Part shown: piece by piece, positions 9,052 to 64,000 of the stretch
How positions within the stretch are numbered: the first letter of the stretch is position 1
How the letters are laid out: every line of letters starts with the position of its first letter
DNA from: Rhodocollybia butyracea
Taxonomy: Eukaryota > Basidiomycota > Agaricomycetes > Agaricales > Omphalotaceae
Assembly (NCBI GenBank): GCA_015501585.1
Contig: JADNRY010000134.1
Span: forward strand, 104,394 to 168,393
DNA length: 64,000 nt
Reading direction: 5' to 3'
Position numbers and translations under genes: made by a program
Notes under the pieces: model-generated
Told to the model about the DNA's origin: nothing
The model's input: the letters and a program-made list of their open reading frames with translations, nothing else
The model's database searches: none

Positions 9052-9680
9052 CTCTGGTTATTATCTGGTTACCCCTTGAAGTACAGTGGGCTTCGAACGA
9101 AATGCAGTGAGCGTAAGCAGTTTTAATACGTTCAACATGCTTGCTTGTCGTGTATTTGTTTGTTTTCAATTAGTTAAGTTCAGCTTCATGTACGCATAAA
9201 TAGTGCAAACTACTATGATCCAAGTTGTAAACTGAAACTCATTGGCTCAAGATTCCATTGAGCGAGTAACTCGGTGAGAAACCTTTTGAAGCGCTCGAGA
9301 TACACTGGCACGTAGCAGGGGTTTATAGTAACAGGCTTGACTCTGTGAGAACTACATACGACAACCTGAATATGGATGTCAATATACTGTCTCTCATACT
9401 AAGTATCAGTGATCATGCATCAGATCATGTCTCTTGCAAGCGAACTACAGTACATATCACCGGTCATATCAGTCGCGCCGAGGATTTGACTCTGTCACCT
9501 GTTTGTCTAGTTAAAGCTCTCAAGAGAGCTAGAGGTACCAACCGATATGTGAAAAGTTACATCAATCGTTGTGTCATTGACTACTTACACCGCATCAAGC
9601 GGTACCATCGACGTTAACGTTAATAAAGGCTCACGTTCGAAGTGTAATTATTGATTCCCCTTTCATTCCATTTCTTTAAG

Positions 9681-26057: not shown

Positions 26058-26073
26058 TGTTTCGTGAAAGTGC

Positions 26074-26211
26074 CTAGATATTGAGTATTGAGATTCTAGT
26101 AGCAAGGAGTCGGATATAGCACATACTTGTTTGTAATTGCAAGGTATTAATCAAAGAAATCCACTTGAACAGAGGATGAAGGAAGAAAAGCTTCACCATG
26201 CGTCTTTTATA
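26074..26211 (-). promoter_or_regulatory. TATA box and 5'-UTR intron of gene B2
   Basis: TATAAAAG lies at 26204-26211 (minus strand). Between it and the ATG, a 53-nt intron fits 26126 (GTATGT) to 26074 (CTAG), ending 16 nt before the start codon. Equivalent donor GTACGT and acceptor sequences are present upstream of B1. Confidence 0.5.
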
Positions 26212-34305: not shown

Positions 34306-34667
34306 CATCAGGAAAAGCCGTTTTTGCCTAGGTGACCCTAGAGTGGCCTAAAGCAAACTAGGTGACCTATGAATCCTATGGCATCCTAGAAATTTGGGCT
34401 TGTCCCTTGCCAGTCAAGGCTCTTGAGGATTCCCTAGGGTATCCTAGGCAAACCCAGGGCAAGCCTAGGTTTGCCCAGGTTTGCCCAGGTGTTCCCCAGG
34501 AGCACCTGGGCAAACCTGGGCACACCTAGGCTTGCCTAAGGAATCCTCAAGAGCCTTGACTGGCAAGGGACGAGCCCAAATTCCTAGGACGCCATAGGAT
34601 TCATAGGTCACCTAGTTTGCTTTAGGCCACTCTAGGGTCACCTAGGCAAAAACGGCTTTTCCTGATG
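34306..34667. mobile_element. Foldback MITE, copy 2
   Basis: 362-bp element of the same family as 29767-30146. The ends are CATCAGGAAAAGCCGTTTTTG and its complement, with long arms containing GGTGACCTATGAATCCTATGG and a centre of CCTAGG/CCCAGG-rich sequence. It is flanked by AA on both sides (34304-34305, 34668-34669). It sits in what appears to be an intron of the KDZ transposase, between the DWNW block and the next coding stretch. Confidence 0.85.
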
Positions 34668-44848: not shown

Positions 44849-45590
44849 TCATTCGGAAGGTTTATCCTTTCCGATATTTAAGGAGGTGTCCTCCTCGATT
44901 GGCTCAAGAACATTTTTAATGTTCTCGGTGTCCGACTCATTGGGGTGTTCTGATGATTCAAGTTCATTGTCTCTATTCCTAGAAGAGACATAATATTTAG
45001 TGAGGGCCGTGTGGTCCTCAATGCGTGTGACGGCTCTGACCATCACTTCTAATCTGGCATACTCCAGAACGATCCCCTCGTTCGTGAGTTGCCTGATAAT
45101 ATTGAAGGGTAATCCCTCAATGAACCGTTTCCGCATTGTTGCATCATCCGGTGTTTGGAGCATCCGTGATGCCCATCATGTAAGTGAGGAATAATAATCC
45201 CTCACACCCATATCGGGTGAATACTCAATAAGGTCAAACTGCCGTGCAGCTTGATGAATGATCGTTGCTTGGATGCAACGATCAAAGACACCAATGATGG
45301 CACCTTCAAATGTCCACTTAAGGACAGTGCGGTGTATACCAGCAACTTCGTCGTTATACCAGTCAAGGGCTTTGCCCTTTAGAAACATGCCAAGCACGGC
45401 AGTCCGTGTAGCATCGTAATCGTCACCGCACATGCGGTTGACTACCATCCATTGGAGAAGTGACATTAGCCACCGCTCGAAGACATCGACATCCGGAGAT
45501 CCATCATAGACCTCCGGAGATGGAACTTTAAGAGCTTTACGGCTCTCAATGGGAGGGATAGGATTCCCTACCTTATCTCAAATTTGTTTA
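44849..45590 (-). pseudogene. Ty3-like Gag fragment with an in-frame stop
   Basis: The minus-strand frame from about 45590 encodes a retroviral-type Gag core (FERWLMSLLQWM, GKALDWYNDEVAG, QFDLIEYSPDMGVRDYY). It continues after one in-frame TGA (45176-45178) to FIEGLPFNIIRQL and an acidic tail ending at 44849. There is no pol before the LTR, so it is a non-autonomous or deleted element. Its 5' part is cut near 45590-45637 by the large LTR element. Confidence 0.7.
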
Positions 45591-45637: not shown

Positions 45638-47910
45638 TATTTGGGTATTTACGTGTAGGTGTGTGAAAGGTGCTATAAAACAACCTAACAAAAACACTAC
45701 CACACCTAACCAGACTATCGATATGTAAGGGAGCGAGGGCGGGTTGTCAGAGATTCCCCGAGGGAAAGTCTTGTAATATCGGATGTACGCGCGCGACTGC
45801 TCCAGGTTCAAGACTGTAGCGCTAACGTGGGTAACTAAGCTTGGACAACTCTTAGAACTGAGTCGAGGGAAGCCCAGCTGGGTGTACATATGTACGAGGG
45901 AACGTTGGGATGTCCGAATCAATATAACCAAACCAAAACCAATAATGCGTATGTGTCCAAAACCAAATAATCAAAACCAAAACCAATACAACGAAACTAA
46001 GATTCTCCTAGGCAAACTCTGGCTCTAGCTAGAATAGTAATCTCGAGGTTTGTCAACAACCCTAGGCAAACTCTGGCACTAGCTGCTGTGACGCCGTAAA
46101 GTCCTCGACCGAACTCTGGGCCAAGCTACGATATTGTGAGTGAACTTAATCACTAGGAACTCGTACCACAATCTTAGTGGCTCGCCTAACTTCACAGGGA
46201 AGTTGACTAAGGAACCCTCACTCTGGAGCCGAATAATTCCTTACTAGAAACCGTCCCCTCTAAGGAAGCAACTAGATTTAAGGTTGATCTGGAGTTCGAG
46301 GGAACTCACACGCTCAAGACTCGATCAGATTCTCAAGTGGGCCAAAGGAAGTTTGTGAAATTCTATTACAGGCCAAATTCCGCCGAGCAAGTAATATGAC
46401 AGTAAATCAAACTCCTTGAAGAAACTATCAGTCACTCCGCGGTAAAGCATCAAGACTGGCTAACAACTTCGTGAAGCAACTAACACTTCTCCGCGGGAAC
46501 ACGTAGGAGGTGACCAGCTACTTACTAGGTGAAGAAACTAACAACCAACTCGTAGTTAAGTAGAGAAGCGTCACGCTACTAGTCCCGAGGACGTTCTACG
46601 GAGCTCACTTCCTAACATACAAATCGAGGGAAAGATCCTCTGAGGTGAAGGAACACAACCAATCTCGTACAGGGAGGTGGCAAGTAACTTCGTGAAGTTT
46701 ATTACTTTCTAAAGATAACCAAGTCAGGAGGCGTCACGCTACTAGTCCCGAGGGGACGTTCTACGGAGCACTGGTCTTAGCAGTCAAGTCGAGGGCAAGA
46801 AACTTTGAGGTGAAGGAACACAACCAATCTCGTACAGGGGAGGTGGCAAGTAACTTGTCTTATTGAATAAATATATCTGGCTTATATACTGAGTAGAGAG
46901 AGTTTAATACGAAAAATAGATGAAACAGATACGGAGAGAGACGGAAAGAAAGTGGAACAGAGGAATCTGGCTCGGAAAGGAAACTCCAGCCTATATATGG
47001 TACACACGATAAAGAAATAGTCCATTCTTGGGTATATATCAGAGGTAAAATATGATTTCGTGAGGATTAACATAGTTTTAGAGTGTTTTGATCCGAGCGA
47101 GGTTTCTCCGATTACTCCACAATTCTCCGGGGTCAGGAGTACCTTTACGCTTCATGATCACTCGCCGCCCGGTTTCCCTTGGGTGAGTTTCATTCTATTC
47201 CTCGGATAGTTCTGTCCATCCTGAGTGTGATTAACATTCTCTCGAGAAGACCTGTTATCTAGCTTTCCAACGACACCACTTATGATAGTCTCGAGCAACT
47301 GCGCTGAGTATGTACAAGTGATTCCCGATAGTTGGCTTTAACGGATAAGACCTTCCGTGTATGATTTCTAAGATCAAATGTTTCGATTTGCCAAGGCTAT
47401 CCCGGCGCGTAGCTTTCCGTAGGTCCGCTAAGCATGTTTCTACCGTCCTCACGGTCGCGACCGGTGCCGCGAATAGACCTCTACGGTTTCCTCGGGATTG
47501 TTCTGGTCCATTGTTACGGACTGTAAAGTCCACATCTTAACATAGCTCGTTGGGGGTCTTAGTGCGAGGGATGCCTTCCCTCATAATTCCTTCCCTCGAG
47601 TAACGCGTTGGCTTAGTACTTATCCCGCTTCGAGATGTCCTGTAGTTTAGAGAGTCTACACTCTTTGGGTATAACTAGATTGACGATCTAGCGTTACATC
47701 TCCGGGCAGCCCAGGTATCCTCGCTAGCTTGGCTCTAGGCTACGCTTGTGGGCGTACCTTCACGGCTCGCTGAGTATTATTGTTAAGTTCTTTGCCTCGG
47801 CAACAGCTATCACGCTTCGGGCTCCGTATAACTCTCTTATTGCATTGTATAACACGTACAAAGTGTCAAAATGTACGGTTACACGCCTTAGGCCGATTTT
47901 AGGCCTAATA
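45638..47910 (-). repeat. 3' LTR of the giant element
   Basis: 2,273 bp, in direct orientation with 62214-64000. Its ends are TATT...AATA instead of TG...CA. It contains an internal duplication: CGTCACGCTACTAGTCCCGAG (first 20 nt near 46567 and 46730) and the nearby GGAACACAACCAATCTCG each occur twice, but only once or not at all in the other LTR. Near the outer end an open frame with a hydrophobic segment (complement of 45931-45640) matches the other LTR. Confidence 0.75.
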
Positions 47911-47947
47911 TCTCCCCCAAACTAATGATCTGACCGTCCCCGGTCAG
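47911..47947. promoter_or_regulatory. Polypurine tract / 18-bp box plus hairpin, copy 1
   Basis: CTCCCCCAAACTAATGAT at 47912-47929 is followed directly by a perfect 7-bp stem CTGACCG / CGGTCAG with loop TCCC (47930-47947). The complement (GTTTGGGGGAGA) abuts the 3' LTR and fits the polypurine tract. The same box and a covarying hairpin recur at 52164. It also lies upstream of the antisense gene at 48378. Confidence 0.65.
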
Positions 47948-48377
47948 CCCACCAAGCCTAGGATCGACTCTGCTAGCAATCCCTTTTATGTTCTCGGCAT
48001 TTAGCATTCTAATTCCTTTCCCGCGGGCTAGTCTGGACGTACTACCCTTAAGTTTAACTGGGATCATTCTCGACGTCGGGCGCTTATGTGAATCAGGTGT
48101 CAACAATTGAATTGATCTACAAGACAGCATATGCCGCGGGCGCCTAGACTCCTGATTGGGGATTCCAATCATTTCCTCGATAACATTTTCTTTAAGTTTA
48201 GCGTGTTAAGTCTTCGAGAACTCTGAAAACGCCTCTATCACATTCGTATTTTGTGATATGTTGTTTTACGTCTTAAGACAGATGCCGGTCACTTCGGCTA
48301 CGGCTTCGGGCAACGATCTATTAATAAGGCCATGTTGAAAATTTTCAACAAGTCCCATCATCGTCTCTCCCACCACC

Positions 48378-51299
48378 ATGTCCACCGAACAAGGCCTTCC
48401 CGACTGGTGGCCTACGCTGCCTTCCGACGTAATTGAGGCTTATCTTGCTCTCTCATCCTCTTCTGACTCCGACAATCTCCTCGACGACTTCAAAAGCGAG
48501 AAACCTTCCTTTTTCGCACTAGCTGAGCCACTGGTGCAGAAATTCGAGATTCCTAACTTGACGCAACAAGAGTCGTATTTTATTGGTCAAGATATCGGTC
48601 GACTCCCGATCCTAGGAGACATTCCACGCGAGTATTCTGCTAGAATGATATGGGCCGCAGCTGTCGCTATTCAGCGCAAACTATCGCCACATCTCTTGGC
48701 CGTGGCCAATGACAAGTCTTACCAGCCAGGCAAAGAAACGAGGGCGGTTCGCCTTGCGTTTTCTATCCTGACTCCTCGACTCGTAAGTGGTTTCTATCTC
48801 CTTCTACTCTCAAGAGATCGTCGTTAACTTAATGGTTTATTCTTTGTAGATCTTCCTCCGTACTCACGTCTTGGGACGGCGATCCTGCCCTCTCATTATC
48901 GAGAGCATTGTGGCGTCTTGCCAGAGGCTATCCCGAATCGTTCGTCGAACAGAGACTTCTCCGAGTGCGGAACCAGCATGGTACCTGGCCGACCATATGG
49001 TCCAAGAAATCCTGGTACATTTCTATTTATCATTTTGTTTATGTTTTAACTTATTCGTTGTCGCCTTATAGGAGTACGCGAACCTTCACTTCCACCTACC
49101 CGACCGTCCCATCTCGATTCCACTCGACAAAGACTGTCGAGAAACGGACTGGCTTGGGGACCAAGAACCCATTGACACTGGTGTTCTTGATGCTCCTAAG
49201 TCTATTTCTGAGGAAGGGGAGGAAGAGGTAGAAGAGGCCAGCGACGTTCCTTCTGACAGTGAACGGTCGGCTTATGAGGAGCCTCCGTCCCACTCGAGGG
49301 TAGGTTTTTCTTCCTTATAAATTTCTTTTAAACATTTATTTCTCTTTTAGGCGTCTCCGGCTGGAGAGAAACTTTCTCGTTACCCAACCCGGAAATCGAG
49401 AGGGCGCAGGAAGAGCAAGGTTCCTCCCGCTCCGCCGCCTGTAGTGGTTTCGGACAAGAAGACAAAGAAGGCCCCGGCCCCGGCGATCGTTCCCAAGGCC
49501 TCGAAAGAGGTGAAGACTCCATCTGTTCCCAAAGCTTCGAAAGCTCCGAAGGTTTCTACGGACATCAAGGTGACGAGATCTTTAAAATCCCAAGGCACTC
49601 CTCTTTTAGAAGCCCCGGCCGCGGGTTCTTCCAAGAGTAAGAACAAGGTCAAAGATGTAAAAGGAAAAGGGAAGGAGGTGATATCCGATCCGGTCATGGT
49701 AAGTTCTTTCATCTCTCTTCCTAGGGTTCTATTGAGTTTCCTGCTAGCCCCCGAGCCTTAAACGTAAACGTCATAATGACCTGGGGGATGAGGCAGAGGC
49801 AGAGACCATGTCCATTCCTCGTCCGCCTACTATCTCAAAACCCGTAAGAAACTCGTCCCTGTGGTCGAGATTCCGGTTCCTACCACTTCTGGCTCAAAAC
49901 TCAAGAACACCATCCTTCCGGAGTTATCCCGTGACCCCTCTCCTGTTCCTCCGGAAAACCTTGTATTCCTTGTCCCGGATGCAGACGTGAATTCCTTCGA
50001 ACTCGACAGTCTTTTTCAGGACCTAGCTTCCCGTTCTGGCAAGGAATTCACTTCTTCTGGGTCTAAGGAATACCGTACAGTCATTGTACGTTTCGAACGA
50101 GACGCCCTGGATTTGCCCTCGTTCGAGGAAATCCTCCCACGCGGCAACCAGGTTCGTCTGTCCCCTTTCTCGTAACTTGTTTGTAGACTAACGCCTGCCC
50201 CTTTTTAGAAGCCAAAGGAACTTTTCAAGACTAGCATGACTTGGGGTGTTACACCCGAGTTAGACGCTTTCCTGGACCTCCCGGCCGTTAGTACCGGGAC
50301 GCACCAGATGTCTTGGCGAGTCTTCCTTCGCGCCAACCGTGCCTTCTGTAACGTATGTAAACTTTTCCGACGGTTATGACTTTATTAATATTTTCCGTTT
50401 TTAGACGGATGTTGTCGCTCGCGAGATACCTTGCCTCCAATGTGCTGCGCGCCGACCGACAGATTCCAAGGGAGAGGACCGCCTGCCGTGTACCTATCGT
50501 CTAGATGACGACGGAAACCGGAGGTTCGGTGCTTCTTGCGATAATTGTGCACTCTCCCATCAGACTTGCTCGGACACGCTCCACGTACCAGAAGTAGTTG
50601 AGGTACTCGATGAGACCTACGAAGCGTCGAAGGGTTCGCGAGTTAGTGAGTAGTTTTCTTTTGTTCTTTTTAACTTCTTTTTATTAACGTTCATGTTTAG
50701 ATATCGCCAAGCAGGTCAACACGATTGCTCGCATCCGTACTTCTTACGATGCAGCAATTAAGGCCAGGGAACAGCTCAACGTGTCCATCTCGAGCACTTT
50801 TGACGCTTTGCAGCATGAAGTACAAGAGCTCCGCAGCATGGCTCCCGACCCTCAGGTTTTCCTCGAGTCTTTCGTGCCGATCCTTCCCGAGAAGGAGTTG
50901 TCTCTCACGGATTGGAGTTTCTTATGCTCCTTTATGAAGTGGAGATCGGACTACTCCTTCCCGACCAACCAGGCTTATCAAGACTTCCTGAAGAGCATCG
51001 TGCACGCCGCCGTGGTTCCGGCTTCTGTGGAGAGCGCCCTCGAGAACGATTCCGGGGTGCCCGCTGGTACTTCGTCTCCCCGAGGATCTCCTTCTCGTTC
51101 GGCAACTGGTCTTTTCGATGAAGAATCAGTCGTGCCACCTACTGGGAGTCCTCGAGATGAAGAAGCGTCGATGGCTGGTACTCCCCGTGAGAACCCGGGT
51201 TCACCTGTGTCTGGGTCTGTTATCGACCAGGACGAGCCAGTGGACCAGCTAATGGAGGGAGTTGAGACATTATCAGATGTCAAAACCACTTCCCCTTAG
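48378..51299 (+). CDS. Retroelement antisense gene X, Zn2Cys6-like protein
   Basis: Nine exons: 48378-48782, 48850-49014, 49072-49299, 49351-49698, 49748-49843, 49906-50151, 50209-50352, 50405-50645 and 50701-51299. All join in frame to 823 aa. The fifth intron (acceptor AAG at 49905) is the least certain. The N-terminal 190 residues are helical, followed by an acidic/basic Lys-Pro-rich linker (about 267-400, with TRKSRGRRKSK and KRKRH as nuclear-signal-like runs). Residues 554-599 carry six cysteines as C-x2-C-x15-C-x15-C-x2-C-x6-C, close to the fungal Zn2Cys6 cluster but with a longer first loop. A helical segment (about 625-680) follows, then a Ser/Pro-rich tail. It is antisense to gag-pol. 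A DNA-binding regulator is inference. Confidence 0.7.
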
Positions 51300-52160
51300 C
51301 TTTCCTTGATCTTCTCGGAGTCTGGGCCGCCGTTGGCATTGCTGTTCGTCCTCGGACGTTAAATAAATTTTCTTTATATCATATTTCGTCGCTCGCCCCT
51401 CGCATGGGGATTTCGCTTTTGTCTCCCCTTTCTGGGGCAGTATCGTGGTATTCTTAGGTATATAGGCACCTTTAGAATACCGTAAATAAAGCCTATCAAT
51501 ATCAAGACCTTCGGGTCACTGTGTACATATCATACTCGAGTGACTTCCTAAGTCTTAAGTTTACTCTCGGAAAGGCTTACAGCACGCTAGCCTATTCTCG
51601 AGAGTTTTGTTATAATAACATAAGTTTTCCTTGAGTACCGTACCAGCTCTTTGTAGCATGTGGGAGTATACTCGCGGAAAGCTTTTTTATGACTCGAATT
51701 CCCGCCCTTGGGAACCTATACGGTTCGTTAAAGGTGTAATCAAGTCTTCGAGGGAAAGCCTAGAGAAGACTCATCATCCTAAGTAAGCTGGGTGCGATGC
51801 AATCTTTCCCTAGATATTGACATTCTTTCAATACAACATCCAATCTTGGATCAGGTCCTGTTTAGGGCATAGTGATGACCGTCAAACTGAAATCCATTGA
51901 TGCTCGATATTATGGGTGTAAGGTTTTTCCTAGCGTTTTCGTCTTCCGGAGAATTATCGCGGTGAGGTACCTGCGTTAGGTTTCCCCGTGCCGCTTCTAA
52001 TACTCTTTAAGCGTTCGCTTTATGTTTTGCCTAGTGTTCTCCCTTTTGTTGAGCAATGTTATGGTTCCTATTTTTTGGTCATAGATGTCGTTGAATAAAT
52101 TCAAAATTCTCCTCGTGATGGTGGACTGCCTGGAGCTATGGTGTCTTGGCACCATGCGCT
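51300..52160. other. Noncoding spacer between the two antisense genes
   Basis: No open gene. It holds the 3' flank of gene X (AATAAA-like AAATAAATTT at 51360) and sequence rich in TCGAG/CTCGA words, as elsewhere in the element. It could be a former LTR edge, because a polypurine-like box begins at 52164, but it does not match the 2.27-kb LTRs. Confidence 0.45.
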
Positions 52161-52163
52161 TCC

Positions 52164-52200
52164 CTCCCCCAAACTAATGATATCAACTGTCCTCAGTTGA
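52164..52200. promoter_or_regulatory. 18-bp box plus hairpin, copy 2
   Basis: The same 18 bp CTCCCCCAAACTAATGAT (52164-52181), one spacer base, then a 7-bp stem TCAACTG / CAGTTGA with loop TCCT (52183-52199 plus A 52200). Four of seven stem pairs differ from copy 1, each changed on both sides so that pairing is kept. Confidence 0.65.
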
Positions 52201-52262
52201 GCACTCGGGTTTTCCGAACGCGCCGGGGACCCGTAGGACTCCGTCGCTCTAAGACATTAACC

Positions 52263-52270
52263 TATAAAAG
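52263..52270 (+). promoter_or_regulatory. TATA box of antisense gene Y
   Basis: TATAAAAG lies 69 bp upstream of the gene Y start codon and about 60 bp downstream of the box-hairpin element. Position and sequence fit a fungal TATA box. Confidence 0.5.
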
Positions 52271-52338
52271 CGTCCGCGCAAAACATTTCAAGACCCAGTT
52301 CTCAGAAAGCTTTTCCTCGAACTACAAGTCTCTCTACA

Positions 52339-53972
52339 ATGTCTTCCAAGAACACCCAAAATACCGATGACAAACCGCAGTTCATGAAGAATACTATGGA
52401 AGCCATCGTCGCCTCCACCAGAACACTCAAAGAGGCTACCAGTCGGCTCCGTGATGCAATCGAGTACGTCGAGGATCAGACTCTCCTTCAGGCAGAGGTT
52501 CTTAGTACTGTACAAAAGCACGTCGATCTTCTTGTGAGCCTCTTTTCGCCTTTTTCACGGAAGCCTGACCTTGATATCCTGCCTCCATAGACCACGTCTT
52601 TTCATAAGGAGAAAGTACTCAAATTCCCCGCGAACGTTGGTGTCCTTGAACAAGGACATGATCTCCTTCTCCGCGCGATGAAGATCTGTCCCAGCGCTAA
52701 GACTGCTCATTCTGCGACTGCTGTGCGCCTCGGCAATTTCATCAACGAGCTCAACCTTGCGCTGGTAAGCCCGGTTTAGCATATCCGAGAACAAACACTT
52801 ATAGATACCGACCCAGGCGGCGTCGAAGAAGGTTTCCTCGGGGGTCACTGGTACTACAGGGCCGGGCCCTTTCACCACTACCCGCGGTAAGCCCCCTCGC
52901 TATGCTACCATCCTGGACTACTGTCTTCCGTCTAAACACGATGTAGTAGGGGCTTCCAGTGCTGCCAACGATGACAAGCCCACCGATTATGCGGCAAAAT
53001 CCGCCGCTCTTTCTACCATCTCGTTCTCCAAGGAGTCCAAAGAACCCTCGAAGTCGACTAAAAGCTCTAGTAGCTCCAAAGGTACCATTCTCATCGACGA
53101 CGAGGACGAACCCATGGAGGAAGATCATCCCGCTACGCAGATCGCATTTGTAAGTTCTCTTTTCTTAACATATATTATAAAATCCATGAAGCGTGCGCCT
53201 GTACGGATCCCACGATAACTGTGCTGAAGGAACCGTAGGGTTACCATTCACGCTCGGGCTTGCCTCTCCCAAAAGGACCATTTGGCTCTCGGGCTTGGAA
53301 TCAACGAGCGGTCGTACTGACTAAAGAGTTCCAGGATCCCCCGGAAATTACTGACGCGCTGGCTCGCGCTCAGGCTTCGAGGAAGAAGACCCGAGAGTCT
53401 AGGAAGTCCTCGAAGGCCAAGGTACTTAGATCCTTTCCTCGGGCCCTGTAAACACTTTGGCTGACGTCTCCACATAGGCTTCCGGTGAAGTGAGTACTTC
53501 ATCACTTAAGAGGAAAGTCGAGGAAACGCCTGTTGCCAATGAAGCGGCCAGTCTTGTCAATGAGTACGGAAAGCGCATGCGTTTCGACGCTGAGCTCATT
53601 GATAGCTCTCCCGAGGATGCTGGTGAGTATTTATAACGTGTTTTAACAAATCCGTCTTACATCTGTTGCGCAGTTACTCGTGCGCGACGCGAATGCGTTG
53701 TGGCCAAGCAATTCCTTGCTTCTTTGACCGGCCAATTTGGCGAACTCGACTTTGCCTCGATGACCGATACCAATCTCAATGTTCTCTTGAATATTCATAG
53801 GAACGAGTATCTCGGGAACCTGAGCAAGACCCAGGTCTTTTACGCTCGTGCTCTCCAAGCTCAGAAAGTCACAGACAGCTTGGTCCACCTTTTGAAGTTC
53901 AGAGAGGACTCAGAAATGGTAGAAGGTGTACGTCAACTTTCCCTTGAACATCGTCAGACAAGCGGGCGTTAA
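52339..53972 (+). CDS. Retroelement antisense gene Y, basic 446-aa protein
   Basis: Six exons: 52339-52533, 52591-52764, 52805-53149, 53239-53421, 53478-53622 and 53674-53972, joined in frame to 446 aa. The N-terminus is helical and likely coiled coil (MEAIVASTRTLKEATSRLRD). The middle is Ser/Lys-rich and then acidic (ILIDDEDEPMEEDHP). A basic run (SRKKTRESRKSSKAK) is followed by a helical C-terminal domain (about 350-446, QFLASLTGQFGELDFASM). No known family. All introns are 40-90 nt and no stop interrupts the coding exons, whereas pol of the same element is broken. It converges with pol, whose stop lies 446 bp away. Confidence 0.65.
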
Positions 53973-54417
53973 TCCACTATGCCTTCAGTGAGCATTGGTT
54001 GTTGTGAATGTACAGGGATGGAGTGTGCGATGTGTCAATCCTCCCTGTTAGCATCGTTGGAGTGGTAAATAACTTGTAAGTTTTTCTCTCTGGACACTAT
54101 ATCGTTGTCTGAACCGAGCTTCTAGTCGAATTCTTTAAATAAACTTTCTCTCGAGAAACCACAGTCTTTACAGTCTCTTTATCTTCTTCGCCTGGTAGCC
54201 TGTGAGCTCCGGCAATTCGATTCCAGTACTAGTTAAGCCTATAGTCACTCGTTTATATCTTTAACATAGGCCTCTGACTATTACAGTCTTAAAAGCCCAA
54301 TAAATCCACGTGTATTGATGATAACACGGAGTTCTCGAGATTAACATAACTTCGACACAAAGGTAAGTTTCTTTCCACGGCAAGGAAATGCATAGTGTTA
54401 TAAATCCCTCGAACACG
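53973..54417. other. Spacer between gene Y and pol
   Basis: 3' ends of gene Y (+) and pol (-) converge here. Poly(A)-signal-like AATAAA words occur on the plus strand near 54138 and 54299. No gene seen. Confidence 0.5.
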
Positions 54418-56070
54418 TTAGCGTTCATTATTAGGTATCACTTTTCGCATCGCGCGTGTTCTGACACGAGGAGCTTCGTCTGTCTCCGGTATAATCTCTT
54501 CCTCGCTTGAATCTTCGTCAGAGTCCGGGTCTTCAGGGTTATAAACCACTTCATCACCGTCTACTGGTTTTCTCAAGGTAGGGATTTGATCAAACAAGGG
54601 GTCCCCCCCTTTACGGATAAATTCCACATCCTCATCGTCATCACCATCGTTTACCATGGTGTCTAACTGATCCTTGGTCAAGTCGATGAGATCATGTATA
54701 TCCTCAGGTAAGTCCATAGGTTCGTATCGGGAACGGTGGGGTAAGACCCTAAATGCACCAACTTTGCTTTTCAACACGGTACCATCCATTTCCGCGATAA
54801 TGTAAGAACCTCCCCTAGTTCTACGGATAACGACCATCGGTCCCATATATCTAGGGAACATCTTCCTGTCAAGATTCTTTTCGATTGCTGTATTTCTAAC
54901 CTGAACAAGCGTCCCGGGTTTGAAATCGTAGTCGAAGATGACATGGCGATACTTCTTCTCGAACTCCCTTAGGTCTCTTCTCTTATTTTCAGTGACACGC
55001 TCTCGCATGTCCTCGACAAAGGTTCTATGTTTTGACAAGGCCTGTGCACGATAACCCAATAATTCCTCGGTCGTCAAGATACGATCTGGTGGGTTTACCA
55101 ACCATGTAGACTCAACGATATCAAAAGGTAATAATGGTTCCGCGCCGGTTACCAAGAAGAATGGTGAACAACCAAAACCTCTCCTCGCCGTTATTCTATC
55201 AGCCCATAATACATGTTTAAGGAAGTAGAACCACTTCTTGATATCGCCGCCCGTCGCTTTTACCAGAGCCTGTCGAATATCAAAGTGCGCTCTTTCGATT
55301 TTGCCATTCCCTTGGGAATTATATGGCGAGACCCGGATCCCTCGAATTCCATATTTATTCTCGAGCCAGTTAACCATGGCTAACATCACCGGGGCGTTAT
55401 CCGTGACAACTTCCTCGGGACATCCCCAACGACAGATTATGTCGTCAAAGAACCACTCGGCCAGGGACTTCGCGTTTTCTTGCGGTAAGGCCCGGGCTTC
55501 TGACCAACTTGACAGAGAATCCCTAGCGTGAACAATATACTTACACCTATTGCTCGCGGGTGTGATATTGATAGTATCAACATGCACTTTCTGGAACAAT
55601 GAGGGAGTATGTGTTACGACCGGGGGAATCTTCAGAAGGCGTAATTGACGGTTCTGACAAGGAATGCAAGAGCCAACATACCAATGTACGTCGCTTTCCA
55701 TATCAGGCCACCAAAAACGTCGATCCAGGAACTCGCGGGTAGCAAACGTTCCTTTATGTGCTAAGCTATCATGTGCGCAATGTAGCATATACATTCGACG
55801 GTCAGGACTAACCACTAATTGATGCTGAGCACCTTCCTCAGTAGCTTTCTTATAAAGCCGACCTTTCTTATCCACGAAGAATTTCTTTGCTTGACGCAAA
55901 AAGCTCCGGGCTTCCGGTGCGCTCATGTTTTCTGTGATATCCTTCTCATCACCTGTATGCCACTTGGCAATAGTAGGTAACATATCATCTAGTTTATTTC
56001 CCCATTCCGACCGACGTTCCCGAGGGTAAGGGTTATCAGCCCTCCATTCCGCGGAGTCTTGTGGAATATG
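54418..56070 (-). pseudogene. Ty3-type integrase part of pol
   Basis: Open frame 55983-54418, with the same reading traceable up to about 56070 (QDSAEWRADNPYPRERR) through a one-base frameshift relative to the RT frame. An HHCC zinc domain (HCAHDSLAHKG ... CIPCQNRQ) precedes the catalytic triad D (HVDTIN), D (VVTDNAPVM), E (GNGKIERAHF). The C-terminal part has the SH3-like GPMVVIRRTRGGSYIIAEMDG region typical of Ty3 integrases, then an acidic tail. The core looks intact; only its connection to the RT frame is broken. Confidence 0.8.
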
Positions 56071-58169
56071 AAGTGTTTGACTGAACGAGAGTAGATTTCA
56101 CCGTGACTTTTGATCAGCGATTTTCGGTGACGTTCGGATGCTTTCTCGTCATCGAGGGCTTCCTGGAGTTCTTCCTGGATGTCCTCAGGATGACAAGCTA
56201 GCTCACCGAGGTAACCACTGCGTGGGTCAATGTCGTCCTTGAAGGACTCAAAATCTAAAGGTTCTTTGGCCCCTTCACCCATGATAAGTTCAACGGGAGC
56301 TCCATCATCGTAATCTTCATAGTCATCTGGGTCGATTGGTGGTCGAGGGGACTGATATCCGCCTGGAGGTCTCCGTGACAAACCATCTGGTCCGTGCAAA
56401 ATACCCTTCACATGTAAAATCTTGAAGTGGAACTTACGGATCTCCTCAATCCATCTATTGATTGTAGCGTTCGGACCACAGCTGGGATGATCTAACATAC
56501 CCTTGATGTAGCTTGCATCAGTCTCCACGGTCATTCGTCGAGAGCCATAGACTAAGTAATAGCTTGATTGTAATGATAGTTTGAGACCATAGAGTTCTCT
56601 CTTAGACTGAGAGAACCGGGCTTCCCGCTCGTTTAACGTAGTTGATCCAAAGTAATTAAAATACTTCTTTTTAGGATCGTCAGGATCTATTTGATAAATA
56701 AACCATCCCACTGCTTTGTAAGAAGTGTCAACTGCGAGACAAACGTCCCACTCATAGTTAATGTTTCGGAGTGCCGGGGCATTCCTTACACCATCCTTGA
56801 GAGCGTCCATTGCTTTCCGTTGTTCATCTCCCCATTCCCAATCCATGTCACTAGTTAACTTGGTCAAGGGCATTGCCTTCTTTGCGTAGTTCTCGATAAA
56901 CATTCGCAACTGTCCAGCAGTCCCAAGAAAAGCTCGTACGTCGTGCTTATTCTTGCATTCGGGCCAAGTCAAGATTGATTCAGCAATCCCAGCCTCAGGC
57001 ATCCTGCCTTCGTAAGTACAACGGTGTCCTAGGACGATAATTTCAGGATTACAAATGAAAGACTTTTTCCCCGAGAAAGTACCCCCGGCATATTTCATCC
57101 GTTGACACACCCGGTTAACATTCTGCATGTGTTCCCAAACAAATCGTCGTATCCCGGCGTTCTCTGATATGGTCTCGTAACCTCCGTCTGGAAGTTCGTA
57201 CCTAGTATTCGGACCTTTTACGGGAACATCGTCGATATAGGGGACTGTAACATGTGGAATTTCGTCTTGTAGGATATAGGTTACATCGTCGTGGAAGATT
57301 GGTACGGAATTTGTCCATCCCATTGGTAATTTCACGAGCCTATGTGGTCCAAAAGGTGTTTGAAAGGTCGTTAGATCCCTCGAGGAAACTGCTAATGGCC
57401 TCTCATCGTATCCGACATAGAGATCGAAAGTAGCTCCACAAGCTCGACTACAGAAGTCCCTAGAGACTTCAGCCGGGGCCGGCGGTACACCAGAATGTTG
57501 TATAGTAACTTCATTCAACGGTTCCAGACTATGGACCAAACGTAAACTTTTTCCATCCTTTTTAACTACGCAAAACCACTTTGAGCGATAGGAGGCACTA
57601 CTAGGTTCGTAAACTCCTGCATCAATCTTTTGTTTTATTATCTTACACACGTCCTCGAAGATCCCGGGTGGTATTGGAATGTTACGAATGACCCACGGAA
57701 CATGCGGGAGTACTGGAATTTTAACCGCGGGGAAGAATTCTTCCTTGAAGGTACCAGCTTCCTCTGCATTCCAGGCAAACGCTTGTTCCTGAAGCATCAT
57801 GAAGTGATGAATCAACTTCCTTTCTTCCGGCCATAGGAAATCCTCTGAGTGATTTTCATCGATAATCTCTTTTCTTTCCTGTGTGTAGCGTCCGGTTGGA
57901 GTGAACTCAGGCGGATTGGGTGATAATTCAGGCATTCCCTCGAGAGGATTGCCGGTGATACACCGTCGAACTCTGTATTCCTCGGGTAGATCCGCTTTCA
58001 CAGGATGTACTTTGACACCAACTGGTTTGTATTTCTTTGCGCCAAAAGCATCGACCAAATCATAAACCTTCCCATTCTTGGGATCTTTAATCGCAGTTCT
58101 TTTCCGAGGAATTGAATTCTTGCGCGGTTCATAACTCTCGGGCTTTGTATACGCGTATAGTATAATCTT
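56071..58169 (-). pseudogene. Ty3-type reverse transcriptase and RNase H part of pol
   Basis: One long open frame. RT motifs: RLVHSLEPLNEVT, FDLYVGYDERPL, TPFGPHRLVKLPMGWTN and the catalytic YIDDVPVKG (near 57228-57242). The RT connection reads HRCTYEGRMPEAGIAESILTWP and the RNase H region includes AVDTSYKAVGW and VETDASYIKGMLDHP, followed by LHVKGILHGPDGLSRRPP. In the family, YxDD residues bind catalytic metal; both aspartates are present. The frame is separated from the upstream pol part by an in-frame TAA at 58170-58172 and from integrase by a frameshift near 56070. Confidence 0.85.
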
Positions 58170-60125
58170 TTACTCGTGGAAGGTCAGACAGAGCCTAGGA
58201 GGCAATTTGGGTATGCTGCGACGAGGTTTTCCACCTTTTACAAATTTCGGGGAACCAGGAAACTTAGGAGTCTCCCTTTTTGTACTTTTAGCATCACCCT
58301 TCCTGAAGACAGCATGCCGCTCATTAGTTCCCGGTTTCGTAGTGAATCCGGCGAAGGCTTTCGCGTGGTCATCAAAGTCGGGCAATTCCTCTCTATTTAC
58401 TAGTACAGGACCTTCCTCGGGTTCTTCGTAGTCCAAGCCTTCTTTGTGAGCGTTGAATACTCGTCTATTTCCATCCACTAGTTGTTTATTTACGTAGGCT
58501 TCAATAAGCTCATCGTCCTCGGGAGCTTTCTGCGCAATGAAATTTCTCGAAGCCATGACATAGGCCTCGCTTAACTCCTGCTCGGAAAACTGACCCGTTT
58601 CTGCGAACTTATATCCATCACATACAATATCACTATTATCGTCAAAATGGAAACTCATAGCAAATTCTACCTCTCCTTGATCGCTACTCAGATCCTCGAG
58701 GTTTAAAAATTTCCCTGTTCCTCTTGACGGGATTGTTACTACTTCCTGCATGCTCCGGAACTAGTTTGGGTTTGAACTCGGGATTGTCAGTCCTAAGTCT
58801 TCGTCTCGTAGAGCGAATATGTGTACCCATAGTACATTTATTCCCGGTGTTGGGGTCCGTAATCGTCACCTCTTGGCTACCATCCGCATGATTCTTTATC
58901 ACGGATTCCGTGAGAACGTCAAATGGCCTACCAATCAGCACTTCGAATGGTGCCCGCTGTTGCACATGCAGTTGCAGATAGATTGTAATTTCACCAATCT
59001 GGAAAGGAACATTTCTCGCAAGACCTGCGGTTTCCTCGAGACCTCCGTGTACATCCTGCAGACGAATCGTTACAGTAGGGTCCCAGACCAAATTCAACTC
59101 TACAGCAGTCTGACGATCTATTGCTACGATCTGACAGCCACTGTCGAGGATTGCCTCGGTTGTTCCATCCTGATGATTGATCTTTGTGTTAATACACCGG
59201 AGACTACTAGATCTTCCCGCGACAATTACCAAATTACGGCGCTCGTCACCCTCGGGTAAGTCTGCTTTAAAGGCTTCGACAGGGTCCGTTGTACAATAGA
59301 ACCGGCCTTCAAACCATTATGGTTATGCTCGAGGACTTCGAAGATTTCTTCACTATCAAGCTTAATGCTATCCATGGAGATATAACTATCGAATTCGTTC
59401 CCGCGAGGAAGTTCCAGCTCCTCAGGTACTTCAGTGCCATCTTCGAGGAGAGTACTAACATAAGCATTCTTCCTCTTAGTAGGAGTTACCCTGACGTTCC
59501 TAGCTTTCCTTAACATAATTTTCTGGAGAGGACGACTCAGCGCTAATAGCTCCTCTGATGTCAGCGTTACTTCTGCATCGAACAACTTTCGAGCGACTTC
59601 TTCCTCGACTCCAGGTAAGTGAAATCCACTTCTAATATTAAATTTGGGTCCATTATCCTCGACAGACTTCTCCTTGACAGGATTGTCTTTATCTTGGGTT
59701 TCTAGACGTGGTTGATTGCGTGGAATGGGATGAACCGCATGTGGTTTCACCGCGTCGAATGGTCTATGAGTAACCTTAGTTATCTCGGGAATAGGAGCTT
59801 CTTCCCTTAATTCAGCCAGACTCCGAGCGAACTCTTCGTCAGCTTCCTTATCAAGGATAATTCCAGTTCCATCTCGAGAGAACTCGTCATCGTCGCCGAC
59901 AACAGCTTTCTCAACAAACTTCTTTTTCACGGGAATCACGACTTCCACTTGTTTATGTTTCTCTTTAATAGCAGGGCTTTTAGGTGGTGGCTTTTCAATT
60001 AGGGGTTCCCTAAGGGTACCTTTCGTTGGCGGGCCTACCTTCTTAACCAATTCCTTCGTAGATGTGGGCTTTTTCGAGTCTGCCTGCTTGCCTAGAGTAT
60101 TTCCTCTAGTGACTCTACCCTGCAT
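58170..60125 (-). pseudogene. Pol N-terminal part with aspartic protease
   Basis: Begins at ATG 60125, 12 nt after the gag stop, and reads a charged region to about 59310. A one-base frameshift in AATGGTTTGAAGG near 59312 leads into FYCTTDPVEAFKADLPEG and the retropepsin (AILDSGCQIVAIDRQTA, with the DSG active site; then PFEVLIGRPFDVL). A second frameshift near 58700-58750 leads into an acidic linker that ends at the TAA 58170-58172. Protease residues look intact. The close gag-stop/pol-start spacing suggests reinitiation or a shift for pol expression; this is inference. Confidence 0.75.
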
Positions 60126-60136
60126 CGCCGAAGCAA

Positions 60137-61639
60137 TTAGTTTCCCGACTCCTTGGATTCCCCGGAGCCGGCGATATAACGACCGTTCGTCTCATGTTCC
60201 TCCATTAGCTTTTTCATGGAAGCCAAAAACGAAGTGAGGTGAGGCTCTTGCTCCTCGGTATCCAAGTAGTCTTCTTCCTCGACAAAGAATGCATTGGTTC
60301 CACCCTTATCCCAGCCTTTAGATTTTGCAATCCTTGCAATCTTTTCTGGGCGAGATTCACTAGGGTCGTTCCTCGGCAACGGCGTACCATCGCGCAAAGT
60401 ATACTTCTTCGACCCGGGAGTAGTGTCAGGAACTAACCATCCTTTATCCTTGTAGGAATTAAAGAATTGGCACTCCGACATGCGATGTTCTAGTGACCCG
60501 CACATAAAACAACCCTGCCCCCAATCCGGAATGGTCTTCGAGGTATTCTGCGGCGCAGTAACTTGCGTTGACGTGTATCCTGAGCGTTTGGATTCTATAT
60601 TATCCTTCATTAAGCTCATCATCGAGGAGATAGCCTTTTGGTGACCATCCAAGACTAAATTAGTCTCTTTCCTGTTCAGAGCGATAGTATCTTTAATCGA
60701 GGCGATTCCCGCGAGAACTTCCGACACTTCTTCCTGCTTAGGTTCCACTTTCACGGGATCCGCGGGAGTGGTCTCTGGAAGATGAGGAGAGAATCTGAAC
60801 GATAATGCACCTCGACTATAAGTTTCGGCAGAGTCAGGAACACCTTGAGATCCAGTTGGACGAGCTCCGTTACCATAATAGGTATCGAGGGTTCTGAAAT
60901 CGGGACTCTCGGCTGCTTCCATGACTTCTGAAAGTAGATAAGGATCTTCACGGCGACGAGACAACAACTGAACATGCGTAACATTCTGTGACAAACGCGC
61001 GGAAATCGCTAAATACAACCTTTCGCTCATGGGCACAAGATATGCCTTGACAGCTTCAGCGTTGGAAAGGATTGCCGGCGGTTTCATCAGCTTATCCACG
61101 AGATTCTTAAACTCTCGGTTATACATCATGATCTTTTGATGTTTACCAATGTCCAGAGGTGTGAACTTCCCGGTTAAGATCTCGAGCTCTTGGCGTGAAC
61201 CAAGCTCACTATCTACCGATTCAGAGAAGATTGCTCGTAAATCTCTGAAGAACTGTTGCAAATTAGGAGTTTCGACGGAGGGTAGATACTTGTATGCTTC
61301 CCGAGTGGAATAAGTCATCCAGTCCAACGCCAACGCCACTTTCGCTGCTTCCTTGGTAATGTTTGCCGCGGCAATGAATCGAGTAGTATCCTCAATCCAA
61401 CCATTCAACATAGACGGATCATCTTTATTAAATAGTGTCGCCGTTTTACTACGCTTAGGAAGGTACTTCGAGTTATATTCATCGAGCTCATCTTGTGTTA
61501 ACTTAATTTTGTCTCCAAACAATTGCGCAACCGTAGCATTCGTTCCCGTGGGAGCTGCACCACCAGATCCGCCAGAACCACTCGAACCTCCAGCGTTCCC
61601 GCTCGAACCCGGGTTGTTATTGCTTGTAGTAGTACTCAT
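60137..61639 (-). CDS. Ty3-type Gag
   Basis: 500 aa from ATG 61637-61639 (MSTTTSNN) to the stop at 60137. A Gly/Ser-rich N-terminus is followed by the capsid-like region (about 55-300: FNKDDPSMLNGWIED, ALDWMTYSTREAYKYLP, NREFKNLVDKLMKPP). A CCHC knuckle CFMCGSLEHRMSEC (C-x2-C-x4-H-x4-C) and an acidic C-terminus follow. The same frame is open far upstream to about 62500, so a longer product through non-AUG initiation or splicing is possible. No stop interrupts this frame, in contrast to pol. Confidence 0.8.
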   Translation of the reverse strand: MSTTTSNNNPGSSGNAGGSSGSGGSGGAAPTGTNATVAQLFGDKIKLTQDELDEYNSKYLPKRSKTATLFNKDDPSMLNGWIEDTTRFIAAANITKEAAKVALALDWMTYSTREAYKYLPSVETPNLQQFFRDLRAIFSESVDSELGSRQELEILTGKFTPLDIGKHQKIMMYNREFKNLVDKLMKPPAILSNAEAVKAYLVPMSERLYLAISARLSQNVTHVQLLSRRREDPYLLSEVMEAAESPDFRTLDTYYGNGARPTGSQGVPDSAETYSRGALSFRFSPHLPETTPADPVKVEPKQEEVSEVLAGIASIKDTIALNRKETNLVLDGHQKAISSMMSLMKDNIESKRSGYTSTQVTAPQNTSKTIPDWGQGCFMCGSLEHRMSECQFFNSYKDKGWLVPDTTPGSKKYTLRDGTPLPRNDPSESRPEKIARIAKSKGWDKGGTNAFFVEEEDYLDTEEQEPHLTSFLASMKKLMEEHETNGRYIAGSGESKESGN

Positions 61640-62500
61640 TGTAAGATTGTTTAAAATAGAAGACGAGAGTTGGTTAACTGCTGTAGCTAACTGAGAGATT
61701 TCCTCGGGAATACGAGGAAGAGATGAAGATGAAGATGAAGGTTGACTAGTCAAGTTGTCTTGCACACGGGCTGGAGCACCCCTTGTACGTGAACTGGCTT
61801 GAGTAGTATCAGTGGGATCTGCTTTCGCTTTCCCTTTTAAAGACTTCTTGGCAACGTGAGTTGTTTCAGAAGTCGCACGGACTATGCTTGGTTTAGATCC
61901 GCGTGAAGACGGAGTGCTAGATCCTGCTCGAGTGACAGAAAAAGGAGGTCGACGTTCGGGTTCGACGCTACTATTATATCGTTCTCGAGGTTTAGGTACT
62001 CTTTTACTGCGTCTTAATTCAGATGTTCCCGGATCAGGAAGTTCGCCTACTCCGGAAAGAGTTGACTCTGAATCAGGTGTATTATCCGAGGGATCACTAA
62101 TCTTGTGGACTAGCGAACGAAGGACAAAGAAGATGAACTCTACTAACCCAAGGACTAGGTTTGTAGTAAAATCCGATAAAATTAGATTCCACCCCTCGCG
62201 GTGGGCTCCAGATATTTGGGTATTTACGTGTAGGTATGCGAAAGGTGCTATAAAACAACCTAACAAAAACACTACCGCACCTAACCAGACTATCGATATG
62301 TAAGGGAGCGAGGGCGGGTTGTCAGAGATTCCCCGAGGGAAAGCTTTGTAATATCGGATGTACGCGCGCGACTGCTCCAGGTTCAAGACTGTAGCGCTAA
62401 CGTGGGTAACTAAGCTTAGACAACTCTTAGAACTAAGTCGAGAGAAGCCTAGTTGGGTGTACGAGTGTACGAGGGAACCAGGTGTGTATGTCCAAATCAA
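61640..62500 (-). other. Open leader upstream of gag, no ATG
   Basis: The gag frame stays open for about 287 codons upstream, through the primer binding site and into the 5' LTR, without any ATG. It would encode two hydrophobic segments (SIVWLGAVVFLLGCFIAPF and TNLVLGLVEFIFFVLRSLV), then a basic Ser/Pro-rich stretch (RRSKRVPKPRERY). The LTR part is also open in the other LTR, with about seven amino-acid changes. Confidence 0.5.
62193..62211 (-). promoter_or_regulatory. Primer binding site
   Basis: On the minus strand, two bases after the LTR end, TGGAGCCCACCGCGAGGGG. Its complement ends in CCA and has the form of a tRNA 3' end with U before CCA, which would suit a tRNA-Cys-like primer; the tRNA itself is not in the window. 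Confidence 0.55.
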
Positions 62501-64000
62501 TTAACCAAAACCAAAACCAATACAACGAAACTAAGATTCTCCTAGGCAAACTCTGGCTCTAGCTAGAATAGTAATCTCGAGGTTTGTCAACAACCCTAGG
62601 CAAACTCTGGCACTAGCTGCTGTGACGCCGTAAAGTCCTCGACCAAACTCTGGGCCAAGCTACGATATTGTGAGTGAACTTAATCACTAAGAACTCGTAC
62701 CACAATCTTAGTGGCTCGTCTAACTTTGTGAAGAAGTCAACTAAGGAACCCTCACTCTGGAGCCGAATAATCCCTTACTAGAAACCGTCCCCTCTAAGGA
62801 AGCAACTAGATTTGAGTTGATCTGGAGTTCGAGAGAACTCTACACACTTAAATTTGATCAAGATATAAATGGGCTTTGCGAAGCGCGTGAAGTTTATTAC
62901 TTTCTTAAGATAACCAAGTCAGGAGGCGTCACGCTACTGATCCCGTGGGACGTTCTACGGAGCACTGGTCTTAGCAGTCAAGTCGAGGGCAAGAAACTTG
63001 TCTTATTGAATAAATATATCTGGCTTATATACTGAGTAGAGAGAGTTTAATACGAAAAATAGATGAAACAGATACGGAGGAGTGGAACAGAGGAATCTGG
63101 CTCGGAAAGGAAACTCCAGCCTATATATGGTACACACGATAAAGAAATAGTCCATTCTTGGGTATATATCAGAGGTAAAATATGATTTCGTGAGGATTAA
63201 CATAGTTTTAGAGTGTTTTGATCCGAGCGAGGTTTCTCCAATTACTCCACAATTCTCCGGGGTCAGGAGTACCTTTGCGCTTCATGATCACTCGCCGCCC
63301 GGTTTCCCTTGGTGAGTTTCATTCTATTCCTCGGATAGTTCTGTCCATCCTGAGTGTGATTAACATTCGCTCGAGAAGGCCTGTTATCTAGCTTTCCAAC
63401 GACACCACTTATGATAATCTCGAGCAACTGCGCTGAGTATGTACAAGTGATTCCCGATAGTCGGCTTTAACGGAAAGACCTCCGTGTATGATTTCTAAAA
63501 TCAAATGTTTTGATTTGCCAAGGCTAGCCCGGCACGTAGCTTTCCGTAGGACCGCTAAGCTGTTTTCTACCGTCCTCACGGTTCGACCGGTGCCGCGAAT
63601 AGACCTCTACGGTTTCCCGGGATTGTTCTGGTCCATTGTTACGGACTGTAAAGTCCACATCTTAACATAGCTCGTTGGGGGTCTTAGTGCGAGGGATGCC
63701 TTCCCTCGAGTAACGCGTTGGCTTAGTACTTATCCCGCTTCGAGATGTCCTGTAGTTTAGAGAGTCTACACTCTTTGGGTATAACTAGATTGACGATCTA
63801 GCGTTACATCTCCGGGCAGCCCAGGTATCCTCGCTAGCTTGGCTCTAGGCTACGCTTGTGGGCGTACCTTCACGGCTCGCTGAGTATTATTGTTAAGTTC
63901 TTTGCCTCGGCAACAGCTATCACGCTCGGGCTCCGTAATAATCTCTTATTGCATTGTATAACACGTACAAAGTGTCAAAATGTACGGTTACACGCCTTAG
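62214..64000 (-). repeat. 5' LTR of the giant element, outer end cut by the window
   Basis: Direct repeat of 45638-47891. The first ~600 bp and the last ~1,000 bp align almost base for base; relative to the 3' LTR it lacks about 0.46 kb in all, mainly the equivalents of about 46350-46690 and 46814-46852. The last bases CACGCCTTAG match 47882-47891, so only about 20 bp of LTR should be missing beyond the window. Confidence 0.75.

Follow-up and report, generated by a model that had tools for sequence, protein, structure and literature searches.

Accessory genes lying antisense to gag-pol are present in plant long terminal repeat (LTR) retrotransposons and in the fungal element Boty (PMC7264820). 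In Botrytis, Boty/BcGypsy1 has an antisense gene named brtn (PMC7264820 and PMC8365987, citing Zhao et al. 2011), and antisense open reading frames are described in the plant elements Retand, Grande, RIRE2 and PvRetro13, some of whose products are nuclear or are predicted DNA-binding proteins (PMC11963269, PMC7264820). According to the available text of the plant review, the function of such genes is not known (PMC7264820). Here we analyse a stretch of 64,000 nucleotides from the basidiomycete Rhodocollybia butyracea (contig JADNRY010000134.1; hereafter the window), which contains a Ty3/gypsy-type LTR retrotransposon on the minus strand and, between its integrase and its 3' LTR, two spliced genes on the plus strand, gene A and gene B. 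A sequence-only reading of the window had already recognised this arrangement; what is new is that gene A is exchanged between copies of the element.

Two antisense genes and the exchange of gene A

The two genes and the leader that precedes gene A occupy the following window positions:

47911..48377, plus strand: leader of gene A, starting with the 3' polypurine tract and hairpin read in the plus sense
48378..51299, plus strand: gene A, 8 exons, with one frame break in exon 5 of the window copy
48378-48782, 48850-49014, 49072-49299, 49351-49698, plus strand: gene A exons 1-4
49748-50151, 50209-50352, 50405-50645, 50701-51299, plus strand: gene A exons 5-8
52339..53972, plus strand: gene B, 6 exons, 446 amino acids, open
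52339-52533, 52591-52764, 52805-53149, 53239-53421, 53478-53622, 53674-53972, plus strand: gene B exons

Gene B is exactly as the sequence-only reading had drawn it. For gene A, the same reading was right about a spliced plus-strand gene but not about its nine exons and 823 amino acids: splice sites conserved across most copies give eight exons, and the nine-exon model was rejected. Both genes had also been taken to be intact and in frame without stops, which holds for gene B only, since exon 5 of gene A is interrupted in the window copy by a frame break of one base. This break has no counterpart in loci L012, L014, L015 and L016, the rows on which the comparison rests, and is probably why a ninth exon and 823 amino acids had been proposed.

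Gene A is open in four of the 22 aligned copies, with 839 amino acids in L013, 827 in L028 and L030, and at least 844 codons, the last of them shifted, in L012. Most copies keep its intron positions even where DNA identity has fallen to about 60%. Across the aligned copies, GT..AG is scored at 135 of 154 junctions, the misses falling in L015, L016, L022, L024, L025, L037 and L034, and also in L027, L028 and L030, where inspection showed a shift of alignment columns. Gene B conservation was counted over the 26 loci, out of 31, that retain more than 1600 bp of the gene: 129 of 130 junctions keep GT..AG, and 13 of the 26 copies are intact. No intronless copy was found among the 22 aligned for gene A or the 26 aligned for gene B. 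This retention agrees with the earlier proposal that introns of antisense genes escape loss by splicing, and it is what one would expect were retrotransposition to use a template other than the antisense transcript.

Relative to the window, aligned copies are mostly 93-100% identical in the LTR, the 3' flank, gene B and integrase, and in many of them identity drops to 50-75% across 48300-51300, the region of gene A. Three copies illustrate this pattern. The window, L020 and L027 show no difference in integrase (0/1382 for the window against either), and gene B differs at 8/1634 positions between the window and L020, 10/1634 between the window and L027 and 7/1634 between L020 and L027 (more than 99% identity throughout), while gene A over the stretch from exon 1 to exon 4, with introns 1-3 counted in, differs at 395/1282, 609/1243 and 636/1231 positions, respectively (48-69% identity). 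More generally, 55 of 91 copy pairs are at least 98.5% identical in gene B yet below 75% in gene A exons 1-4; these pairs come from 14 of the 22 aligned copies, those left out (L015, L016, L021, L025, L034, L037, L038 and L040) being mostly truncated or disrupted. The 35 listed matches to gag-pol (56000-62200) have 94-100% identity, and those in C920, C919, C712, C818, C537 and C487, all of which have a diverged gene A, have 98-99%.

When copies are grouped at 90% identity, the leader, the 3' flank, gene B and integrase each form one real group, truncated or disrupted copies aside, and each of gene A exons 1-5 forms several groups that occur in differing combinations. The odd groups are not alleles: L034 is unrelated in its upstream half, gene A is disrupted in exon 1 of L015 and L016, and those for gene B (L021, L037) and integrase (L018, L025) are truncated or disrupted copies. 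Some combinations change within gene A itself. L038 is 97-100% identical to L023 up to about 49400, then 61-90% as far as about 51100, apart from a brief stretch of high identity, and 94-100% beyond; compared with L018, it is 56-91% identical up to about 49450 and 94-100% from there on. Because such old divergence switches sharply inside gene A, the alignments indicate that recombination between copies was very probably the means of exchange.

The leader is 94-100% identical over 477 bp among the 40 matches listed. It is followed by allele IV in 24 of these and by alleles I-III in eight; a type II/III-like gene A adjoins it in six more (C158, C401, C809, C1154, C1371 and C570), and in the last two (C388 and C472:38477) the gene A match begins only after some 1.3 and 5.9 kb, a gap that is probably due to insertion. 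Leaders of allele IV differ by about 3%, and those of type II copies are less alike, at about 85-97% per 100-base bin (85-95% for copies such as L020). Counting the query's own locus, at least ten matches to allele IV extend along all 2848 bases of the query at about 100% identity, and further gene A types, 71-74% identical to type III, are found in C672 and C911 among the matches listed. Outside the other lists of gene A, C1140:20070-20505 and C1094:178652-179087 match part of allele IV at 76% and may represent one more allele or else a copy that does not belong to the family.

Between gene A types, exons 1-3 have a synonymous substitution rate (dS) of about 0.9-2.8 or are saturated, and the ratio of nonsynonymous to synonymous rates (dN/dS) is mostly 0.1-0.25, reaching 0.34 against allele IV and 0.40 for exon 4 in one pair. 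Higher ratios come from pairs with L017 (0.4-1.0; a short piece beside frame damage) and from pairs with very few changes (up to 1.27). Only two values exceed 1, namely 1.01 for exons 1-3 of L028 against L017, which concerns a 55-codon piece beside that damage, and 1.27 for L038 against L040 overall, which rests on five changes. With dN/dS mostly low and dS high or saturated, the gene A alleles are old and constrained rather than freshly diversified by amino-acid selection. For gene B, a simple count against the window copy, in which codons with several changes were split 70/30 by rule of thumb, gives a ratio of nonsynonymous to synonymous differences (pN/pS) of 0.26, with pS of 0.033 and an intron divergence of 0.026. 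From these substitution patterns, we conclude that both antisense genes are under purifying selection; with splice sites and frames conserved in many copies and dN/dS well below 1, their presence is not due to chance.

The gene A product has a KRKR motif resembling a nuclear localisation signal and a cysteine-rich stretch, both recognised by eye. It matches three R. butyracea proteins (P0001, P0002 and P0003) at 57-94% identity over part of the query; KRKR and, where covered, the spaced cysteines are kept across aligned alleles (again by eye), P0002 stopping before the cysteines. Word-based searches, which need shared exact words and in which the gene B and gene A profile runs scored about 8000 candidates sharing most words, returned no gene A protein outside R. 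butyracea (two hits for residues 480-760, three for the profile) and no protein match for gene B. Pfam and NCBIfam gave no family for gene A (expectation value, E, up to 0.1; up to 5 for P0001 and P0002) or for gene B (E up to 5), and the gene A profile had no match to a solved structure at E up to 1. As to function, we infer that gene A probably encodes a nuclear factor for specificity or regulation that varies between copies.

The element, its copies and its hairpin signals

The remaining features of the element are listed below:

45638..47910, minus strand: 3' LTR, 2273 bp, ends TATT...AATA, local tandem duplication inside
47911..47947, minus strand: 3' polypurine tract GGGGGAG, adjoined by the hairpin CTGACCG-GGGA-CGGTCAG; read on the plus strand, the gene A leader begins here
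52160..52200, minus strand: internal hairpin TCAACTG-AGGA-CAGTTGA and polypurine tract, between gene A and gene B
54418..55983, minus strand: integrase part of pol, with an H2C2 zinc-binding domain; rve core below cut-off
55989..58058, minus strand: reverse transcriptase (RT) and RNase H part of pol, in an open frame separate from the integrase part in the window copy
58684..59232, minus strand: aspartic protease, family match
60137..62212, minus strand: gag region, with a CCHC zinc knuckle CFMCGSLEHRMSEC seen by eye; Ty3_capsid only below cut-off
62194..62210, minus strand: primer-binding-site-like TGGAGCCCACCGCGAGG, adjoining the 5' LTR; candidate by position
62213..64000, minus strand: 5' LTR, cut off by the contig end

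The Ty3-type element of the earlier reading is thereby confirmed: two long direct terminal repeats are present, the right-hand one cut by the contig end at 64000, and gag, protease, RT/RNase H and integrase all lie on the minus strand, in the domain order protease, RT, RNase H, integrase that is found in Ty3/gypsy. In the window copy, Asp_protease_2, RT_RNaseH_2, RT_RNaseH and Integrase_H2C2 score above their curated cut-offs, and RVT_1 (19.6 of 29.6 bits) and rve (22.4 of 32.6) fall below theirs. Pol is broken in this copy, where the open frame at integrase has 559 amino acids against 1440 in C91, C919, C537, C818 and C487. By position, a primer-binding-site-like sequence and a putative polypurine tract stand where they are expected. 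We regard it as practically certain that the retroelement and both antisense genes are real. The LTR pair is only 95.3% identical over 1788 aligned bases, and the window element is therefore not a pristine recent insertion. Within the 3' LTR, a tandem duplication of about 165 bp occupies 46528-46840, and the 5' LTR has a single copy of this unit. Beside the insertion, short minus-strand frames at 44849-45466 look, by eye, like gag of another retroelement, so that the window element may be nested in an older one.

In the genome assembly (95.6 Mb in 1381 contigs), the region is matched at 31 places or more, including the window's own and apart from one 70-base piece. Of the 31 loci, 29 contain gene B sequence (in L037 just 206 bases) and 25 have integrase adjoining; the six loci without integrase are either cut by contig ends (L033, L038, L040) or broken there (L021, L037, L039). 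The 3' LTR is visible in 16 loci, and most of the others start at or inside gene A or gene B, through the cutting of the locus or a contig end; for L027, the LTR was found further upstream (L042), with a stretch of 1621 bases at 95% identity and another of 693 bases at 88%. Gene B matches in C587, C1038, C1133 and C713 have no integrase among the matches listed, and in the first three of these the element's leader and gene A lie upstream of gene B. In the loci compared, the two genes recur with the element in other copies, which supports the sequence-only reading; neither copies without both genes nor a main occurrence of the genes outside LTR elements was found there.

The 18-mer CTCCCCCAAACTAATGAT is present twice, once ahead of the 3' LTR and once between gene A and gene B, and gene A is bracketed by two hairpin/polypurine-tract signals. 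In the gag-pol sense, each site consists of a hairpin and then a polypurine tract, the two hairpin stems being different. A similar layout is seen in L043 (2117-2160) and L044 (2117-2165), for which the integrase of the respective families is 47% and 65% identical, and all hairpins have an (A/G)GGA loop directly before the polypurine tract. This combination of hairpin and polypurine tract may be a signal for plus-strand priming or packaging. L043 (C680), which belongs to another Ty3-type family of the genome, has antisense coding-like frames on the minus strand between integrase and hairpin (262-1863), and L044 has antisense frames before its hairpin and, by eye, the apparent end of another after it. 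Compared with genes A and B, the L043 and L044 stretches gave no significant match, the best being 34% over 53 amino acids (E 0.04; L044 with gene B). These frames tentatively suggest that antisense accessory genes may be older than the family of the window element.

Elsewhere in the window, two duplicated minus-strand genes at 18195-19241 and 24414-26105 share an HExxHxxGxxH motif and look metalloprotease-like by eye, their repeat stretches being 86-94% identical at a spacing of mostly about 6.7 kb. Direct repeats at about 2.1-2.7 kb and about 1.03 kb in 5028-11148 and 11676-13752 are apparently local gene duplications. Inverted repeats at 29767-30146 and 34306-34667 have arms of 143 and 153 nt that are 87% and 93% complementary.

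Explanations for the diversity of gene A

Our preferred explanation, to which as a whole we give slightly less than an even chance, is that the element has conserved antisense genes of which gene A is exchanged and allele-specific. A Ty3/gypsy family of R. butyracea carries two accessory genes on the strand opposite to gag-pol; each contains spliceosomal introns, and each would be transcribed antisense. Since these transcripts would run against the genomic RNA, the introns would survive packaging and reverse transcription. Gene B would be a uniform helper and gene A a polymorphic module. Diverged alleles of gene A, and pieces of them, are exchanged between elements by homologous recombination, which would most simply take place through template switching between co-packaged RNAs during reverse transcription, on a dominant backbone that recent amplification would hold nearly identical. 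The internal hairpin and polypurine tract might start a second plus strand and thereby aid exchange of the gene A segment. The diversity of gene A would be kept through allele-specific action of its product (with a predicted nuclear signal, cysteine-rich and perhaps zinc-binding), which might repress or exclude elements of the same allele, as in phage immunity or retroviral subgroup interference, or might escape host recognition. That this diversity is maintained for an allele-specific function we propose tentatively, at somewhat less than even confidence, the chief rival being a neutral remnant. By analogy, gene A could even be an exchangeable immunity or identity locus, in which alleles are interference groups, negative frequency dependence keeps ancient alleles and the bracketing signals aid reshuffling, but this we consider unlikely.

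Several points weigh against the preferred explanation. Positive selection on gene A was looked for by dN/dS and none was found beyond the two values above 1 from poor data, nearly all comparisons giving a ratio below 1. Many gene A copies are broken, as the low number of open ones indicates, though some breaks look like homopolymer indels and are possible assembly errors. The leader is not equally constant either, being about 90% identical before type II. The searches returned no homologue with known function for either gene; a structure model of P0001 with P0002 had a mean predicted local distance difference test (pLDDT) score of 34 and was dropped from the fold search. As for the hairpins, the four were picked by eye: 96.4% of their cells pair, against at most 43.8% in slid controls, and four of seven pairs change on both sides among the four sequences, but the number of further pair types was matched in 126 of 500 shuffles and does not stand out. 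Folded alone and compared with shuffles, the 3' hairpin (z -3.4) and the L043 hairpin (z -2.8) are more stable, while the internal one folds no better (z -0.41).

In a neutral or transitional reading, the genes and their exchange would likewise be real, but old subfamilies would have recombined with a recently swept backbone and gene A would keep old differences under no selection for variety. Low dN/dS with high or saturated dS fits old constrained lineages; L027, the sole allele IV copy checked, differs in its LTR too (see the identities above); leaders of allele IV and type II, about 3% and 10% different, look like subfamily remnants; and more diverged integrase relatives exist in the genome. 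We nevertheless find this account somewhat improbable, if a realistic possibility, as a single gene holds the strong divergence, the backbones around it being mostly 93-100% identical, several gene A types persist and are recombined in varying combinations, and the leader, 3' flank, gene B and integrase each remain a single group at 90%. A host arms race, which overlaps with the preferred explanation, would have a host factor bind the gene A protein, or gene A counter silencing, with rare alleles escaping. It draws on the same diversity data, a nuclear, cysteine-rich protein (motifs by eye) would suit a role at the DNA or chromatin level, and antisense proteins of plants, in the text available, are in some cases nuclear or predicted to bind DNA (PMC7264820, PMC11963269). 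An arms race would, however, be expected to raise dN/dS at contact sites, and with 1.01 and 1.27 as the only values above 1 we hold it to be quite unlikely.

Chimeric joining of repeat copies during assembly would make the exchange an artefact, an idea invited by the 1381 contigs, the several copies that end at contig ends, the homopolymer indels that break some frames, and window LTRs that differ by 4.7% while the window's integrase is that of other copies. It is nonetheless very unlikely, because allele IV is present at full length in many contigs, with its ten or more matches at about 100%, the junction from leader to allele IV recurs at 24 places among the matches listed, and both flanks are alike while the intervening gene differs. 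Likewise very unlikely is that the antisense transcripts work as regulatory RNA and not through protein: antisense RNA regulation is discussed for LTR elements in the text available (PMC7264820), but splice sites and low dN/dS argue for selection at the protein level in both genes. As for a pair of host genes having come by chance to lie in one copy of the element, the lack of homologues elsewhere in word-based searches would suit it; we rejected it as practically negligible, given that the pair recurs at 31 or more places and that integrase adjoins it in 25 of 31 loci.

Comparison with known systems

Among the closest described systems is Boty, likewise a Ty3/gypsy element of a fungus, whose additional gene is read antisense to gag-pol and sits between pol and the 3' LTR. 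The sequence-only reading knew of no fungal element with this gene pair; brtn is a fungal precedent for a single antisense gene (PMC7264820, PMC8365987). Compared by description, Boty has one antisense gene, and the available text on it does not mention a multi-intron pair, an internal polypurine tract or allele exchange. In the open-licence literature, we found no report of an allele-exchanged, multi-intron antisense gene or of R. butyracea elements. The plant elements, as far as the available text describes them, are similar in their long region between pol and 3' LTR and in having antisense coding regions in most copies. They differ from the present element, in which Pfam searches found neither TRP28 (PF04195), the antisense domain of the Retand lineage, nor any other domain in the gene A or gene B product, the genes have 7 + 5 introns, and gene A is replaced between copies.

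Plant LTR elements are also said to have a hypervariable 3' untranslated region (reportedly Macas 2009). The variable part likewise lies between pol and 3' LTR; unlike that region, it is here a constrained protein-coding gene. Here, a retroelement maintains genes with introns and recombines them, and the gene that is exchanged is flanked by a duplicated hairpin with polypurine tract.

Retroviral envelope subgroups and the immunity regions of lambdoid phages combine a near-constant backbone with exchangeable, deeply diverged specificity genes. The likeness to gene A is one of pattern only. Gene A has old constrained alleles shuffled on a near-identical backbone, and elsewhere such a signature marks specificity genes, such as immunity regions and receptor-binding proteins. 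The signature therefore raises a testable question, namely whether gene A alleles interfere with one another and what they recognise.

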